Shown: one piece after another, positions 4,850 to 11,888 of the stretch
Layout: each line of letters starts with the position of its first letter
Position numbering within the stretch: the first letter of the stretch is position 1
Assembly (NCBI GenBank): GCA_013695765.1
Contig: JACCZW010000026.1
Coordinates: 1 to 40,748 of the forward strand
DNA: 40,748 nucleotides
Direction: 5' to 3'
DNA from: Gammaproteobacteria bacterium
GTDB taxonomy: Bacteria; Pseudomonadota; Gammaproteobacteria; JACCYU01
The notes under the pieces: generated by a model
What the model was told of the DNA's origin: nothing
Seen by the model: the letters and a program-made list of their open reading frames with translations, nothing else
The model's database searches: none
Position numbers and translations under genes: made by a program

Positions 4850-5140
4850 TCAGCCGCGTCTCAACAGTCGCCCGACGGCGCCCATCAACTCAGCGGCGCG
4901 CTGATCCCTGTCCACCGTTTTGGCCTTCATCACGCAATGATGTGCGTGGTCGTCCAGCAAGCCGAGCGCTACCTTGTCCAGCGCCGCCTGCGCCGCGCTG
5001 ATCTGCGTGATGACGTCGATGCAGTAACGATCCGCCTCGATCATGCCAATCACGCCGCGCACCTGTCCTTCGACGCGCTTGAGACGATCGAGCAACTGTT
5101 TCTTATTGTCTTTGTAGCCCTGCATAACAGTGCTGGTCAT
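4850..5140 (-). CDS. csoR: CsoR-type copper-sensing repressor
   Basis: 96 residues, all helical, of the CsoR/RcnR (DUF156) family. The family signature LLDRLKRVEGQVRGVIGMIE is present. The metal ligands C40, H65 and C69 have the spacing (25 and 4) of the Cys-His-Cys set that binds Cu(I) in CsoR. RcnR-type nickel sensors have His where C69 stands. DNA-bound apo-repressor releases its operator when Cu(I) binds. Second gene of the operon, 12 bp after the DUF4396 gene, and almost certainly its autoregulator, since a CsoR-type operator lies in the operon promoter at 5674-5690. A 106-bp gap follows before the lipoprotein gene. Confidence 0.93.
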   Translation of the reverse strand: MTSTVMQGYKDNKKQLLDRLKRVEGQVRGVIGMIEADRYCIDVITQISAAQAALDKVALGLLDDHAHHCVMKAKTVDRDQRAAELMGAVGRLLRRG

Positions 5141-5152
5141 TGCCAGGATCCT

Positions 5153-5638
5153 CTAATGATGCCCGTGGTGCGCATGGACGACGGCATGCCCCCGGCCGCG
5201 CGCAATCAGATAGCGGTTAATCGGGAACGCGGCGACGTAAGCGACTGCCAGCGCAAAGACCAGGCTACCCCAGAACAGCGGGCTTGCGAGGCCCGCCGTC
5301 ATGGCGCCAGGGATAACCAGCATGACGAGGTTATCGACGATTTCCATAATGGCGATGGACGCGGTATCGGCGGCCAACGCAGTTTTGACAACCACGCCAA
5401 AAGCCATGCCGGCGCGCAGCAGCGGAATGCTGGTGAGCAGATAGCCGAAGAAGAATGCCAGCGCAACGGCCAGCGCGATCGTGGCCGCGGCGCTCCAGCC
5501 GAGCGCGGTGCCGATCACCATGCCGAGCACTTCGCCTATGGCACAGCCGGTAAGACAGTGCGCGGTGGCTATCGCCGTGACGCGGTTGAGCGACGAGTCG
5601 TAGCCAGTCGCCGCAGGGGATGGTGTATGCGTTTGCAT
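5153..5638 (-). CDS. DUF4396 membrane protein with His-rich tail
   Basis: 161 residues. It contains the family signature HCLTGCAIGEVLGM followed by about four hydrophobic spans (ATIALAVALAFFFGYLL, GMAFGVVVKTALAADTASIA and others). It ends in a short His-rich cytoplasmic or periplasmic tail (HAVVHAHHGHH). DUF4396 proteins are commonly found next to copper oxidases and copper regulators, but their reaction is unknown. The Cys pair and His tail suggest metal contact. It is the first gene of the operon, starting 31 bp from the promoter -10 region behind a GGAG ribosome-binding site that sits in a small leader hairpin. A role in copper handling is inferred only from context. Confidence 0.85.
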   Translation of the reverse strand: MQTHTPSPAATGYDSSLNRVTAIATAHCLTGCAIGEVLGMVIGTALGWSAAATIALAVALAFFFGYLLTSIPLLRAGMAFGVVVKTALAADTASIAIMEIVDNLVMLVIPGAMTAGLASPLFWGSLVFALAVAYVAAFPINRYLIARGRGHAVVHAHHGHH

Positions 5639-5759: not shown

Positions 5760-6296
5760 TTATTCGGAACTACGGGGAGACTTGGAGTAGATAATTTTGT
5801 CGTCGCCCACCGCGTAAAAATCGTTCAGGCGGGCGGCTTGACGAAAACCGTTGCGACGATAAAAGGAACGGGTGGGCTGGTATTACGCGCTGGACGAGGT
5901 CTCGGCATAGACCTGCCGTCCGCCATCGTCGTGTATGAGTTCCTCTGTGCGCAGCAGCAGACGGTTGCCAATCCCCTGCCTCTGATACACGGGAGCGATC
6001 ACGATACAGTACAGGTCGAAACTGGCCTCGGTGCACGGTACTGAGCCGAAGCAGGTATAGCCGCACATCGCGCCGTTCTGCTCGGCCAACAGAAACGAGT
6101 AACCACTGGTTGCGCCCTTGTTAAATGCCGCCTCGACGAGTTCCACCGCAACGTCAACTTCGCTGGCCAAGAAGAAACCGGTTGCGGCCGTTACGCTTCG
6201 AACGTCGGCGATATCCTGCTGGCGCAGGTCGGTTCGAAATGTCAGCGCCCTGGGAGCGCGCGCGGCCAACGCATTCGCGGATTCAGGCTTTCGCAT
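5760..6296 (-). pseudogene. GNAT N-acetyltransferase interrupted by one in-frame TAA
   Basis: The first 137 codons (6296-5886) give a GNAT domain with the acetyl-CoA loop QRQGIGNRLL and beta strands FDLYCIVIAP and QVYAETSSSA. A TAA follows at 5885-5883. Reading on in the same frame gives YQPTRSFYRRNGF and then DFYAVGDDKIIYSK, the conserved final helix and strand of this GNAT subgroup, to a natural stop at 5760. The ancestral protein was therefore about 178 residues. The stop removes the region that completes the acetyl-CoA pocket. Only one base change (for example CAA to TAA) is needed. The gene overlaps the upstream GNAT-deacetylase gene by 14 bp and is last in the aminomutase operon. It could be a recent nonsense mutation, a sequencing error or, less likely, readthrough. 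Confidence 0.83.
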
Positions 6297-8061
6297 GCGC
6301 GGCGGCGCGGGTCAGCAACGCGGGCTGCTCGGCTTCGGCGAGTCCGAGAAAAAAATGCCGCGCGTTCACACCCAGCGAACGCGTGCGATAACCGCCTTCC
6401 TGCACCACCAGAGTAGGCAGGCGCAAATCGCCGATCATGCGTCCGTTGAGATGGAAGTCCTTTGCGCGCAAAGTAAATGAACCGGTCGGGTCGCCGCGCG
6501 CGGTATCCAGCCCCAGCGCCAGCACCAGCACCAGATAGGCCGGATTGAATTTACGGATTCGCGCGAGCGCTTTGGCGAGGGCCTCGCGGAATTTCTCGCC
6601 GTCCAGCCCTTCGGGCAGCGGAATGTTGAGATTGAAACCGCGGCCGGCGCCCTCGCCTTTTTCGTCCTCGAAACCGCTGAAATACGGGTACGAGAGCCGC
6701 GGGTGACCGTGCACTGACACGGTCAGCACATCGGCGCGGTCGTAGAAAATGTCCTGGGTGCCGTTACCGTGATGATAGTCCACGTCCAGCACCGCGACGC
6801 GGCCGTAATGGCTTAACTGATGCGCGGCCACGGCGGAGGAATTGAAATAGCAGAAACCACCGAAGCTGTCGCGCTCCGCGTGGTGGCCCGGCGGGCGCAC
6901 CAGCGCGTAAGCCAGCGTGTACCCTTGCAGCAGACATTCCGCGCCGGTCAACGCGCAGTCGACGGCGCCGATCGCCGCCTTGTAAGCGTTCTGATTGAGC
7001 GGTGTGAACGTGTCGATGCAGTAGTAACCCGCGCGCAGCGGCAGATCTTCGGGAACGCGCGCATGATTGCGCAGCGGAAACACGTACGGGTACACCGACT
7101 TTCCCTCCGGCACGCGCGCGCACGCATTCTTCAAGTAATCGACGTAGTCCTTGTCGTGTACCGCCTTGATGTAGTCCAGCGCGAAGTGCCGCGCCGGCAG
7201 GTGTTCGAACAGCGATGTCGCATCGATCTCCTTGATGATCGAGTCAATGCGCACCGGCGCCTGTACGTACCCGCGCTCGCGCACGTGGTGAATCGAATGC
7301 TTGTCATTGACGATCAGCGCAATGGGTCGGGCACGCACTGGCGCACCCAGCGACGTCCCGGCGGTCGCTTTTGGTTCGTACCGCGGCGCGCGCAGTTGCA
7401 CCGGATCATCACGAAACGAATTGACCACGTTATCGATATATTCCGGCGAGCAGACCTTGCCGTACTTGCGTTCGAGAATGGCGCGCACCACCGAGCGGGC
7501 GTATACACGCCGCAGCGGCGGTTCACCGCCCAGCCCGTCAAACACCAGATAAGGCGGGTCGGTCACACCTTTCCTCAGCGGGGTTTCGTAAGCCGTATTG
7601 GCGATCGGTCGCGCATCGTAATGCTCGTAGAACTTCAGCCGCGCGATATTCTGAGCGCGAATCTTGTCATCGGGAGAGAGTTCCGGTTCATCGGGCAGAC
7701 ATTCGAAGAAAAGCCCCTTCGCCTCCAGCGAACGCGACTCTTCACGAACGCGCTGGTAAAGCGCGCCACCGGTGCCGCCACCAGTGCCGCCGCGCGCCGC
7801 CGAGAGGAAATCCAGGTAACAGAAATGCAACTCCGGATCGTGCAACAAAAGCGCGAGCCCCAGTACCTGAGCACGCGCATCCTCCGCCACGAACAGGATC
7901 GCGCGAAACCGATGTTTGTGCGGGCTCTTCAACTGTTGCGGCAGTTTTGCGATGTCAGCTTCGTCCAGCGCCTGAAACTGCGTACGCAGGATCGCCTGCA
8001 CCTGCGCGAGCGACGCCTTATTGACGTTTGTGTCGTCGTGGATCTTACGGATGCGAAACAT
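6283..8061 (-). CDS. Fusion of a GNAT-like acetyltransferase domain and a class II histone deacetylase/acetylpolyamine amidohydrolase
   Basis: 592 residues. Residues 1-160 look like an acetyltransferase: a strand with AILFVAEDARAQVLGLALL, then a glycine-rich acetyl-CoA-type loop (RGGTGGGTGGALYQRVREE, 91-109), then NIARLKFYEHYDARPI. Residues about 245-580 are a complete zinc deacylase: RPPGHHAERDSFGGFCYFN with the His pair 393/394, DVDYHHGNGTQDIFY with probable Zn ligands D428 and H430, the third ligand D519 in LALGLDTARGDP, and a late GGYR motif. Relatives remove acetyl groups from polyamines, lysine side chains or acylated amino compounds. Having both acetyl transfer and removal domains in one chain is unusual. 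The gene overlaps the ATP-grasp gene upstream by 17 bp and the broken GNAT downstream by 14 bp. Substrate unknown; an acylated amine made by this operon is the natural guess. Confidence 0.88.
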   Translation of the reverse strand: MFRIRKIHDDTNVNKASLAQVQAILRTQFQALDEADIAKLPQQLKSPHKHRFRAILFVAEDARAQVLGLALLLHDPELHFCYLDFLSAARGGTGGGTGGALYQRVREESRSLEAKGLFFECLPDEPELSPDDKIRAQNIARLKFYEHYDARPIANTAYETPLRKGVTDPPYLVFDGLGGEPPLRRVYARSVVRAILERKYGKVCSPEYIDNVVNSFRDDPVQLRAPRYEPKATAGTSLGAPVRARPIALIVNDKHSIHHVRERGYVQAPVRIDSIIKEIDATSLFEHLPARHFALDYIKAVHDKDYVDYLKNACARVPEGKSVYPYVFPLRNHARVPEDLPLRAGYYCIDTFTPLNQNAYKAAIGAVDCALTGAECLLQGYTLAYALVRPPGHHAERDSFGGFCYFNSSAVAAHQLSHYGRVAVLDVDYHHGNGTQDIFYDRADVLTVSVHGHPRLSYPYFSGFEDEKGEGAGRGFNLNIPLPEGLDGEKFREALAKALARIRKFNPAYLVLVLALGLDTARGDPTGSFTLRAKDFHLNGRMIGDLRLPTLVVQEGGYRTRSLGVNARHFFLGLAEAEQPALLTRAAAHAKA

Positions 8062-9013
8062 GGTTTACGATGCGCTCAATGACTTCATCATAAGAAAATC
8101 CGGCTCGCGCCGCGGCGGCGGCAAAACCGGCGTCGGGCGCTAGACACGGATTCGCGTTGACCTCCAGTACCCAGGGACGGCCCGCTTCGTCCACTCTGAA
8201 ATCGACGCGCGCGTAACCCCGGCATTCGAACAGTGACCAGCAGTGTCCGGCAAATCCGCCAAGCGTCTCCAGCAATGGATGGTCGTGTTCGCCAAAATCA
8301 AACGTTCGTGGCGTATGCATGCTTTCGAATGAATCCGGCTGCCATTTCGCCGCGTAACCGACGATGCGCGGCTTGTGATTCGGGAAATTCTCGAATTCTA
8401 TTTCCGCCGGCGGCAATACTTGCGGCCCGTTTGTATTTTCGATCAACGCGATGTTGAACTCGCGGCCCTCGACAAAGCGTTCCGCGAACCACTCGCCACC
8501 CAATCGTTTTCGTCGCGCGGCCAGCATTTCGGTCACATCACACGCATCCACCACGCTGTCATCGTCTATGCCAATCGACGCATGCTCCCATACCGATTTG
8601 ATTATCCAGCGGCCGTCAGCGGCAGCATCGGATTCGGCTGCGCGCCAGTCCGGCGTGTCGATGTCGCACAGTTTCAGCAGGCGCTTTGCCAGCAGCTTGC
8701 TGGACGACATGAATAAAGCGGTCGATGAAGCGCCGGTATATGGCACCTTCGTTTCTTCCAGCAGCGCGGCGCCGACGGGGCAGAAACGCCCACGACCATC
8801 CAGCGATTCGACCAGGTTGAATACGAACGCCGGACGTTGCTGTCGGAGATACGCGCTCGCGTGCTGGAGATTCAGGCTGACGGGCAATGTCGCAACGGCA
8901 TAACCCAGCCGCTTAAGCGCCGCTTCCACGGCCTCGACTTCGATCAGCACGTCCCGTTCGTCGGGCGGTGCGTCCGCAGCGAGCGCGCCATACAAGATGG
9001 TGACAGGTGACAT
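8045..9013 (-). CDS. ATP-grasp ligase 1 (D-alanine-D-alanine ligase-like)
   Basis: 322 residues from the ATG at 9013; a TTG at 9037 would add eight residues but has no better ribosome-binding site. The order of parts is that of D-Ala-D-Ala ligases: an N-terminal domain (FVFNLVESLDGRGR), a central ATP-binding part (RWIIKSVWEHASIGIDD) and the C-terminal Mg-binding strand pair (YARVDFRVDEAGRPWVLEVNANPCLAPDAGF). Such enzymes activate a carboxylate as acyl-phosphate and join it to an amine. The normal cell-wall Ddl is unlikely, because it sits in an operon with lysine 2,3-aminomutase and a second, diverged ATP-grasp enzyme. It lies about 100 bp after the second ligase gene and overlaps the fusion gene by 17 bp. 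Product unknown, probably an amide or peptide of the operon's amino acid. Confidence 0.87.
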   Translation of the reverse strand: MSPVTILYGALAADAPPDERDVLIEVEAVEAALKRLGYAVATLPVSLNLQHASAYLRQQRPAFVFNLVESLDGRGRFCPVGAALLEETKVPYTGASSTALFMSSSKLLAKRLLKLCDIDTPDWRAAESDAAADGRWIIKSVWEHASIGIDDDSVVDACDVTEMLAARRKRLGGEWFAERFVEGREFNIALIENTNGPQVLPPAEIEFENFPNHKPRIVGYAAKWQPDSFESMHTPRTFDFGEHDHPLLETLGGFAGHCWSLFECRGYARVDFRVDEAGRPWVLEVNANPCLAPDAGFAAAAARAGFSYDEVIERIVNHVSHP

Positions 9014-9112
9014 CACGTACCGTTTAGCTCGGAGCAAGTTGACCGTGTCTCGCGAAACGCAAGTGGGCGCGGCGTTCGTGCCGCACGCGTCGAACCCGAA
9101 AAGTGCTTCGCG

Positions 9113-10126
9113 CTATGCTGCCTTGACGTCGGCAACGCCCAACGCCGCCGACGGTTCGATGCGCTGCAGGGCGGAGTTCAGGATCATGCCGATGAGCGCC
9201 TGATAATCGATACCTTTGAGCCGGCAGAGAATGGCAAGATCGGAGATTTCGGGATTGAGTCCCGCCAGCGGATTGACTTCGATAAAATTCGGGACGGCGT
9301 TGGCGTCCAGGCGTAAATCGATACGTCCACCATCGCGGCAGCACAGGCTCCGCCAGGCGCGCAACGCCACTTGCCCAAGCGAGCGCGCGAGATGGCCTTC
9401 GATCAGGCGATACTCGACCCGCCCCTCGAAGTGCGCCTTGTTATCGTAGCTGTACGCACCGGGTTCGGCCGAGGCGCCAAGTAACACTTCCATCGCACCC
9501 AGTATCCGCGCCTCGCGGCCAGCGCCGACTACGCCGACCGTGAATTCGCGGCCGGGCAGATATGTTTCCACCAGCACCGGCTGGCGATAACGCATCAGCA
9601 AATCCCGGCACACGGTATTGAGTTGTTTAGCCGAGCTGATTCTGGACGCCGCGTCAATGCCTTTGCCCGTGCCTTCGGCCACCGGCTTGGCGAACAATGG
9701 ATAAGGCAGCTCGACCGCGGCAATATCCGCGAGCACCTCGACCACGGTGAAGTCCGGCGTTGGCACCCCGCAGTCGCGCACCACGCGTTTCGCCATGGCC
9801 TTGTGCAAGGTGAGCGACATCACCATAGGGTCGGAGAACGTGTACGCAATCCGCCACGCGTCCAGCAGCGCGGGAATCTGCGCCTCGCGGCCAAAACCGT
9901 AGAGACCTTCGGCAATATTGAAAACTAGATCCCAGCGATCGCCCGCGACCAGGCGCGCGGCGAGTTGTTTGATGTTGCCGATTGGCTCCGGCATGTAACC
10001 GAGGTCGCTTAGCGCGTCGGCGATCGCCTGGATGGTGTCCGGGCGATCGAATTCGGCGACTTCTTCTTCCGTGAATCCGGCGGCGATGTATTCTTCCTTG
10101 AGGTCGAACGTAATACCTACGCGCAC
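9113..10126 (-). CDS. ATP-grasp ligase 2 (D-alanine-D-alanine ligase-like)
   Basis: 337 residues. It starts MRVGITFDLKEEY and contains DLVFNIAEGLYGFGREAQIP, a Ddl-type N-terminal segment. The nucleotide-binding core follows (YPLFAKPVAEGTGKGIDAAS), then the metal-binding end (GRIDLRLDANAVPNFIEVNPLAGLNP). The two ligases of this operon share the fold but little sequence, so they probably carry out two different condensations rather than being a duplicated gene. Its start overlaps the aminomutase gene by 10 bp. The family makes carboxylate-amine bonds using ATP; the acceptor and donor cannot be read from sequence. The E-x-N-P metal motif is intact, so it should be active. Confidence 0.88.
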   Translation of the reverse strand: MRVGITFDLKEEYIAAGFTEEEVAEFDRPDTIQAIADALSDLGYMPEPIGNIKQLAARLVAGDRWDLVFNIAEGLYGFGREAQIPALLDAWRIAYTFSDPMVMSLTLHKAMAKRVVRDCGVPTPDFTVVEVLADIAAVELPYPLFAKPVAEGTGKGIDAASRISSAKQLNTVCRDLLMRYRQPVLVETYLPGREFTVGVVGAGREARILGAMEVLLGASAEPGAYSYDNKAHFEGRVEYRLIEGHLARSLGQVALRAWRSLCCRDGGRIDLRLDANAVPNFIEVNPLAGLNPEISDLAILCRLKGIDYQALIGMILNSALQRIEPSAALGVADVKAA

Positions 10127-11475
10127 GACGGCGACCTCACGCGGCGGGCACGGCGGCGTGGATGCTTGTCGCGTCCGAGACTTCCGTGCGGATCGGGATA
10201 ACGATAAACGTTGCCCTCGTAGTTGGTCAACAGCAGGTCATCGCCGTCGCGTCCCAGCACGTAATCCGGCAGCAGCGGAATCTTGCCGCCACCGCCGGGG
10301 CCGTCGACGACGTATGCCGGCACCGCATAACCCGTGGTGTGACCGCGCAGACCCCGGATAATTTCCAGACCTTTGTCCACCGTGGTACGGAAATGTGCCG
10401 AGCCGGAAATCGGATCGCACTGATAAAGATAATATGGCTTTACGCGCACCTTGAGCAGACCGTGCACCAATTGCGTCATGGTGGGCACGTCGTCGTTGAC
10501 CCCTTTCAAGAGCACGGTCTGACTGCCCAGCGGAATACCGGCGTCCGCCAGACGATTGCAGGCCTCGGCGACTTCCGGCGTGAGTTCATCCGGATGCGTA
10601 AAGTGCAGACTCATCCACAGCGGATGATATTTCTTGAGGATGCGAACCAGCGCGGGCGTTACGCGCTGCGGCATCACGGCGGGCTGCTTGGTGCCGATGC
10701 GCAGGAATTCCACGTGCGGAATGGCGCGTAGCCGGCTTAAAATAAAGTCGAGACGATCGTCGTCCAGACTTAATGGATCGCCGCCGGAGAGCAGCACGTC
10801 GCGGATCGTCGGCGTGGCGGCGATGTAATCGATCGCCCGTTGGATGTCGCTTTTCTTCAGGCTGAGTTCGCCGGCCGCGCCGACCAGTCGCGAGCGCGTG
10901 CAGTATCGGCAGTACGTCGAACAGAAATTGGTGACCAGAAACAGCACGCGGTCCGGGTATCGATGCACTAGACCCGGCACCGGACTGTCGGCGTCCTCGC
11001 CCAGCGGATCGTCGGCCTCGCTGGGCGCGCGAATGTATTCGCTACCCGCCGGCACGACCGTACGCCGCAGCGGCTGCACAGGATCGTTCTCGTCCAGCAG
11101 GCTTGCATAGTAGGGCGGAATGCCGACCGGTAACGGCCCGTTGTGGCGCGCGATCGCGTCGCGCTCATCGTCCGAAAGATTAACGATCCTGGCCAGCGCG
11201 TCGGCCGAACGTATGCGGTTGCGGTTCTGCCAGCGCCAGTCGTTCCATTCGCTGACCGAGACATTGAAATAGTGATGTTTTCTAAAAGCGTTGGTGCGTG
11301 CGCTGATGGTCAGGCGCGGTCCACGGCGATTCAATTTGGCCGTTTTGCGCGAGGGAATGCAGGAGCGTAACGGTGGAAGCGGTACGGTGGCCGGTGTGAC
11401 GGCCCTGAAGTCCAGAATAGTTGAGCTACGCTCGGGAGGCTCTTCGTTATCAGAATGGAACATATCGTTTTTCAT
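10117..11475 (-). CDS. kamA: Lysine 2,3-aminomutase (radical SAM, PLP)
   Basis: 452 residues from the ATG at 11475, which has GGGGA at a good distance; a GTG 13 codons upstream has none. The radical SAM cluster motif CSTYCRYC (C185, C189, C192) is intact. The PLP lysine K398 lies in the DGPGGGGKIPLLP motif. The two aspartates that hold the side-chain amine of lysine in the clostridial enzyme (D293 and D330 there) are both present, as D354 in YQCDP and D391 in YVVDG, with the same spacing to the PLP lysine. This favours L-lysine to beta-lysine over the glutamate variant. The basic C-terminal tail (RRRARRVR) is unusual. First gene of a five-gene overlapping operon. In other microbes beta-lysine feeds acetylated osmolytes, antibiotics or EF-P modification; no epmA or efp gene is nearby. 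Confidence 0.9.
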   Translation of the reverse strand: MKNDMFHSDNEEPPERSSTILDFRAVTPATVPLPPLRSCIPSRKTAKLNRRGPRLTISARTNAFRKHHYFNVSVSEWNDWRWQNRNRIRSADALARIVNLSDDERDAIARHNGPLPVGIPPYYASLLDENDPVQPLRRTVVPAGSEYIRAPSEADDPLGEDADSPVPGLVHRYPDRVLFLVTNFCSTYCRYCTRSRLVGAAGELSLKKSDIQRAIDYIAATPTIRDVLLSGGDPLSLDDDRLDFILSRLRAIPHVEFLRIGTKQPAVMPQRVTPALVRILKKYHPLWMSLHFTHPDELTPEVAEACNRLADAGIPLGSQTVLLKGVNDDVPTMTQLVHGLLKVRVKPYYLYQCDPISGSAHFRTTVDKGLEIIRGLRGHTTGYAVPAYVVDGPGGGGKIPLLPDYVLGRDGDDLLLTNYEGNVYRYPDPHGSLGRDKHPRRRARRVRSPSCA

Positions 11476-11888
11476 TATGGATTCCCCGTACCGTGCATTT
11501 GATAAGGAGGCCACAGACCTCCCGTCAGTTCATTTACCGCCGTAGGCGTGTCTTGAACGCCGCCTTTTCGACGCTTCCCCGCAACTGACTTACGCGCGAG
11601 TAATGCGCGCTTTTATAGACTCATCTCGCAAAAATTCAATAGGCTGAAGGTAAAATTCAAAGGTTTTTCGCGAAGCGGTGACCAGCGGTAACATAGAGGT
11701 AATAAACGGCATATTGCGCTCGTCTCGCTGACGCAACAAAGGGATAGTCGCGCGTGTCACGACACGGTAAAAATCACGGATTCAGCTAGCGAAACCTGGC
11801 AGAGCAGAGATGAAACCCGCACTGGGCGGCGCATTCCCCAATGTTTTGAATATGTTTTTATCTAAGGCGTTCCAGCCGCGTCTTGGGC
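11476..11888. other. Gene-free stretch between dsbB and kamA
   Basis: 413 bp without a supported gene. It holds the kamA promoter and leader (11476-11639). The rest, 11640-11888, lies downstream of dsbB; no clear terminator hairpin with a T-run or known RNA motif was seen there. Confidence 0.6.
11612..11639 (-). promoter_or_regulatory. Sigma-70-like promoter of the kamA operon
   Basis: On the minus strand, TTGAAT (11639-11634), a 16-bp spacer and TATAAA (11617-11612). Transcription would begin near 11605, leaving a leader of about 130 bases before the kamA ATG. No regulator gene is adjacent. Confidence 0.6.

Follow-up and report, generated by a model that had tools for sequence, protein, structure and literature searches.

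Why would an acetyltransferase and a deacetylase, two enzymes of opposite activity, be made as one polypeptide? The question is raised by a gene, here called GH, on contig JACCZW010000026.1 of a Gammaproteobacteria bacterium (assembly GCA_013695765.1), the 40,748 nucleotides of which were analysed as a whole and are referred to below as the window. A preliminary description of this DNA had proposed that both activities reside in the GH product. This proposal was borne out at the level of domain make-up, since the gene is a single unbroken frame of 592 residues (ATG at 8061 in the ORF list of the window), the N-terminal half of which has a GNAT fold, while the C-terminal half matches the histone-deacetylase family PF00850. 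The features discussed are collected in Table 1.

Table 1 Positions in the window of the fusion gene, its parts and the adjacent cluster genes
Feature	Positions	Strand	Description
Fusion gene GH	6283..8061	-	592 aa; GNAT, helical linker and APAH-type zinc deacetylase
GNAT acetyltransferase domain, residues 1-182	7516..8061	-	AlphaFold2 model, PDB GNATs, Foldseek, Pfam
Gly-rich acetyl-CoA loop GGTGGGTGG, residues 91-99	7765..7791	-	Normal length, no duplication
Y145 of FYE	7627..7629	-	Candidate GNAT general-acid tyrosine; invariant, 87/87
Conserved linker, residues 183-246	7324..7515	-	Two predicted helices, 185-200 and 206-214
APAH-type zinc deacetylase domain, residues 247-592	6286..7323	-	PF00850, 6phr, zinc ligands and Tyr
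6-nt tandem duplication CTGGTG	6529..6534	-	Two extra residues (510-511) in the strand that precedes zinc ligand D519
LIG1	8045..9037	-	D-Ala-D-Ala-ligase-like ATP-grasp amide ligase, 330 aa; PF07478, E 2.2e-17
LIG2	9113..10126	-	Second D-Ala-D-Ala-ligase-like ATP-grasp ligase, 337 aa; PF07478, E 2e-22
KamA	10117..11514	-	Lysine-2,3-aminomutase-like radical SAM enzyme, 465 aa; 2a5h, TIGR03820
GNAT2	5883..6296	-	Stand-alone GNAT, cut short; PF00583, E 2.2e-7; open remnant to about 5760

Domain make-up and active-site residues

When the full-length window protein was searched against Pfam, the histone-deacetylase domain alone was found and the GNAT was missed. When 32 family members were scanned with their first 236 residues alone (E<=0.1), Acetyltransf_1 matched all 32 fragments, with a best E value of 3.2e-8 and one of just 0.09 for the copy in the window. 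An AlphaFold2 model of residues 1-236, built from 32 sequences, had a mean pLDDT of 90.5 and the order of strands and helices typical of GNATs. Superposition on GNATs of known structure gave a top Z score of 16.4 for a tandem GNAT (2.8 A over 168 residues; VIA-align), and Foldseek listed GNAT acetyltransferases at E 7e-8. These structure matches rule out a misread non-GNAT fold, and the Gly-rich loop lies within the fold. The half thus shares its fold, its Gly loop and the tyrosine of its FYE motif with such GNATs as the tandem GNAT 2wpx, RimI (5isv) and AAC(6')-Ii (1n71); it differs from them in that sequence identity is low, at about 9-19%, and in that it was always joined to a deacetylase in our survey of the class. 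Among NCBIfam models, no specific family matched the GNAT of the fusion, nor did the AblB model TIGR03827. Its best profile match in the PDB, a putative streptothricin acetyltransferase (E 0.006), is a weak hint. Streptothricin acetyltransferases acetylate a beta-lysine chain.

The loop that would hold acetyl-CoA had been described as containing a repeated GTGG, a duplication that might enlarge or damage the site. Alignment of homologues gave a different answer: across 87 aligned rows, RGGTGGGTGGALY can be set against TGGGIGGALY with zero inserted columns, G96 and G98 are glycine in every row, and position 97 holds Ile, Val or Leu nearly everywhere, with Thr in the window copy and in a same-genus relative (locus L003) only. 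'GTGGGTGG' differs from the family motif T-G-[GR]-G-I-G-G by a single residue, and it is because of this change, I97T, that the loop looks like a repeat. As a single substitution suffices, we dismiss a duplication. Further along the domain, F144, Y145 and E146 in the C-terminal GNAT helix are invariant in the alignment. The same-genus relative (G001:C150, about 6319-6353) also has 22 extra residues in its GNAT half, inserted between residues 138 and 139 of the window protein.

The linker that follows is conserved in the pattern L..RKY....Y......S..DDP...R. An NCBIfam model of a three-helix-bundle dimerisation domain, NF046112, gave weak matches to 23 of 60 full-length members of the family and to 11 of 32 N-terminal fragments; the match would appear to fall on this linker. 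A model of the whole fusion reached a pLDDT of 81.7 and a pTM of 0.59, a modest value that does not fix the placement of the domains relative to one another.

The C-terminal half had been described as a full zinc deacylase with all of its ligands, and this description holds. PF00850 covers residues 267-571 with an E value of 4.3e-73; H393, D428, H430 and D519 are invariant in the 87 aligned rows, the tandem histidines H393/H394 are conserved, and the catalytic tyrosine Y558 is kept in 86 rows, the one other row having a gap there. The nearest solved structure is an acetylpolyamine amidohydrolase (APAH), 6phr from Marinobacter subterrani, to which the full-length model aligned with a target-normalised TM-score of 0.83. 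With this enzyme and that of Mycoplana ramosa (3q9b), the deacetylase half shares the fold, the tandem histidines, the zinc ligands and the tyrosine. APAH corresponds to cluster 4 of the classical deacylases in PMC11532494, where the motifs RPPGHH and EGGY are tied to acetyl-preferring deacetylases, and where a dimerisation loop, L2, and a gatekeeper motif, PIS, are described for bacterial polyamine deacetylases. The fusion carries both RPPGHH and EGGY, together with an L2-like loop that can be aligned to 6phr and 9gkz with only small gaps and contains an invariant R331, although this loop is of low confidence in the monomer model. The gatekeeper PIS is replaced by PTG, with T526 in all 87 rows. 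Because of its motifs and its L2-like loop, the domain therefore resembles APAH in sequence, although the likeness does not imply activity on polyamines, and since PTG stands in place of PIS, the substrate specificity may differ. Compared with APAH, the fusion also adds a GNAT, a helical linker and a linkage to KamA and ATP-grasp genes. The CTGGTG duplication in this half is private to the window copy: neither the same-genus relative nor any other of the 85 remaining distinct rows has it.

An ancient and obligate fusion

Homologues of the fusion are about 60% identical to it and most are matched over their full length, across phyla, which rules out a recent fusion or an accident of assembly. 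Eighty loci from many phyla, kept from 562 encoding stretches, were compared. Desulfofustis glycolicus DSM 9705 (locus L051) is one carrier of the fusion. Of 232 genomes of the class that were surveyed, 13 contain the GNAT module, and these are exactly the ones that carry the full fusion; as every module-bearing genome has the fusion too, we reject a stand-alone, split form of the module in this survey. In a phylum-wide survey of 299 genomes the module was found in the window's own genome only, and the family is therefore rare in that sample. The most divergent fusions, at loci L127 and L139 (43-44%), occur in genomes that both encode a 648-residue ATP-grasp protein (L127:5177-7120 and L139:6242-8185); the former is a fusion of a methyltransferase with a D-Ala-D-Ala-ligase-like domain and is oriented divergently to the GH gene.

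Between the two species of the window's genus, the fusion as a whole has a dN/dS of 0.075, with 0.083 for the GNAT half and 0.052 for the deacetylase half, indicative of purifying selection. Decay of the gene in this genome is not supported, given dN/dS values of 0.05-0.08 in both domains; the copy departs from the family at 5 conserved sites, where the median member does so at 4. Judged by conserved residues and purifying selection, both halves look active.

Recurrent linkage to a KamA and ATP-grasp gene cluster

The operon context is the main clue to function. In the window, KamA, LIG2 and LIG1 lie upstream of GH and GNAT2 lies downstream, with neighbouring genes either overlapping slightly or set a short distance apart; LIG1 overlaps the start of GH and adjoins the fusion in many other loci. 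The genes recur in the orders KamA-LIG2-LIG1-GH-GNAT2 (19 loci), KamA-LIG2-LIG1-GNAT2-GH (19), GH-LIG2-LIG1-GNAT2-KamA (4) and LIG2-LIG1-GNAT2-KamA-GH (3), with the ligases merely 33-36% identical in some groups of loci. In a quick tree these orders group by clade, yet they require several gains or losses. At 27 loci the fusion stands without cluster genes alongside. A LIG2 relative was present in 22 of the 26 genomes that have no complete linked cluster at the fusion locus. In the class survey the fusion was found in 13 genomes, LIG2 in 10 and both in 4 (Fisher p 0.001; p 0.05 once the window's genus is left out), a real if loose association; the nine fusion-only genomes hold distant relatives of KamA and the ligases only. 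Conversely, loci L131 and L132 have a KamA-LIG2-LIG1-GNAT2 cluster and their genomes contain no full fusion gene. No shared partner was found for the fusions that lie away from the cluster, and among the loci compared no gene family other than those of the cluster was widely common to the neighbourhoods. Just downstream of the cluster in the window (4850-5638, reverse strand) are genes for a CsoR-type metal-sensitive repressor and a DUF4396 protein, which seem unrelated to it.

The KamA protein matches the lysine 2,3-aminomutase of Clostridium (2a5h) at E 2e-139. It passes the cutoff of the KamA family model TIGR00238 and falls under the equivalog cutoff of TIGR03820 (483.6 against 525.4 bits, NCBIfam). 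It retains the CxxxCxxC motif, D293 and D330, and the PLP lysine K337, and the latter three residues are kept in the other cluster KamAs that we aligned. D293/D330 is the lysine-binding Asp pair of lysine 2,3-aminomutase, which in this family marks specificity for lysine. Because these residues are conserved, conversion of lysine to beta-lysine is the likely reaction, going by what is known of the family. LIG2 matches D-Ala-D-Ala ligases in the PDB, and from their family both LIG1 and LIG2 should form amide bonds.

GNAT2, which is RimI-like by profile, is broken in the window: an in-frame TAA (5883-5885) replaces a Gln of the same-genus relative, and the C-terminal part with FYxxxGF is lost. 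With the stop ignored, its dN/dS of 0.28 shows that it evolves faster than the fusion. Profile comparison detected a recognisable kinship between GNAT2 and the GNAT of the fusion (probability 96%). At another locus (L071:8766-10130), GNAT2 is fused in frame to a domain of the arginase/agmatinase family (PF00491, E 2e-67).

Two known systems offer a comparison. The AblA/AblB pathway to N-epsilon-acetyl-beta-lysine likewise pairs a lysine-2,3-aminomutase-like enzyme with a GNAT, whereas the window cluster has two extra ATP-grasp ligases and a deacetylase, and neither of its GNATs scores as AblB. An AblB identity is unsupported for either of them, since TIGR03827 matched 2 of 23 GNAT2 relatives weakly (best 3e-5) and the fusion's GNAT not at all. 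Clusters that make N-acetylated peptide solutes, N-acetylglutaminylglutamine amide for example, combine ATP-grasp ligation with acetylation by a GNAT and encode a hydrolase nearby; by contrast, the cluster described here employs other enzymes, includes a beta-amino acid step and has a zinc deacetylase in place of a peptidase.

A candidate switch and its alternatives

Taken together, these data lead us to propose, tentatively, that the fusion is a bifunctional N-acetyltransferase/N-deacetylase for a small amine and that, where it is linked to the cluster, its substrate is most likely beta-lysine or a (pseudo)peptide of it. In its favour are the GNAT fold with its invariant G96, G98 and Y145, an APAH-type deacetylase with RPPGHH and EGGY, the obligate fusion in 13 of 13 class genomes, purifying selection on both halves, the cluster genes that lie alongside in at least three gene orders, the LIG2 relatives in 22 of 26 genomes and the Asp pair of KamA. 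Judging from the families to which the halves belong, the GNAT half would use acetyl-CoA to acetylate an amino group, and the zinc half would hydrolyse the same acetyl group off again, so that the two activities together would let one protein set the acetylated fraction of its substrate. In such a pathway, KamA would turn lysine into beta-lysine, the ATP-grasp ligases would couple this with one or two further acids or amines, and acetylation might serve storage or use as an osmolyte, with deacetylation for mobilisation. The narrower proposal, that in several phyla a single chain carries out the reversible acetylation of a (pseudo)peptide derived from beta-lysine and produced by an undescribed pathway of KamA and the twin ATP-grasp enzymes, is in our view doubtful.

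Several observations count against the preferred reading. A close LIG2 is found in only 4 of 13 fusion genomes and fusion-less clusters exist at L131 and L132; the gatekeeper is PTG; GNAT2 is broken in the window genome; and, without regulation, acetylating and deacetylating one substrate would waste acetyl-CoA. Because the fusion often adjoins genes predicted to make an acetylated beta-lysine peptide, it may nevertheless act as an inbuilt switch by which a small molecule is turned on and off. AceK and GlnE are bifunctional switch enzymes that have opposite activities in one chain. If the proposal is true, the fusion, a putatively bifunctional enzyme of different chemistry, would be an on/off enzyme of comparable logic acting at the level of a metabolite. 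It would offer a clean system in which to ask why an acetylase and its deacetylase share one chain. It also marks out a widespread cluster of five genes, which probably makes a beta-lysine peptide. In the open-access papers searched we found no description of a GNAT-HDAC fusion or of a KamA/ATP-grasp/deacetylase cluster; the fusion is real and conserved and, as far as those papers show, an uncharacterised variant of known enzyme families.

Other functions would account for parts of these data. The enzyme could handle a protecting group, the GNAT blocking one amine of (beta-)lysine while the ligases join the other and the deacetylase unblocks it afterwards. Two ATP-grasp ligases next to a diamino acid aminomutase, and active sites intact in both halves, would fit such a scheme, which is unlikely given that about nine of the 13 class genomes with the fusion have no ligases and that ligase clusters occur without the fusion. 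Quite improbable, too, is a single-chain cycle of protein lysine acetylation and deacetylation controlling a metabolic enzyme, in the manner of the separate AcuA and AcuC: it would accommodate the cluster-free fusions with no shared neighbours, and the APAH relative PsApaH deacetylates some peptides as well (PMC11532494), but the deacetylase is closest to the small-molecule APAH group and its linkage to a small-molecule cluster is recurrent. We give as little credence to a role in which polyamines or related diamines are both acetylated and deacetylated by the fusion and the cluster is no more than its partner in general diamine metabolism; the APAH-type domain and the fusion of GNAT2 to an arginase/agmatinase-family enzyme at L071 speak for it, while the cluster genes are the sole conserved neighbours and the gatekeeper reads PTG, not PIS. 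Finally, although GNAT domains serve as allosteric binders in other proteins and the GNAT half of the window is weak against Pfam, it is very unlikely that this half lacks catalysis and regulates the deacetylase as a sensor of acetyl-CoA or a binder of substrate, a role of the kind entertained in the preliminary description, as the FYE tyrosine and the G-x-G loop are invariant in 87 rows, beyond the needs of a pure binder, in a half whose dN/dS is 0.083.
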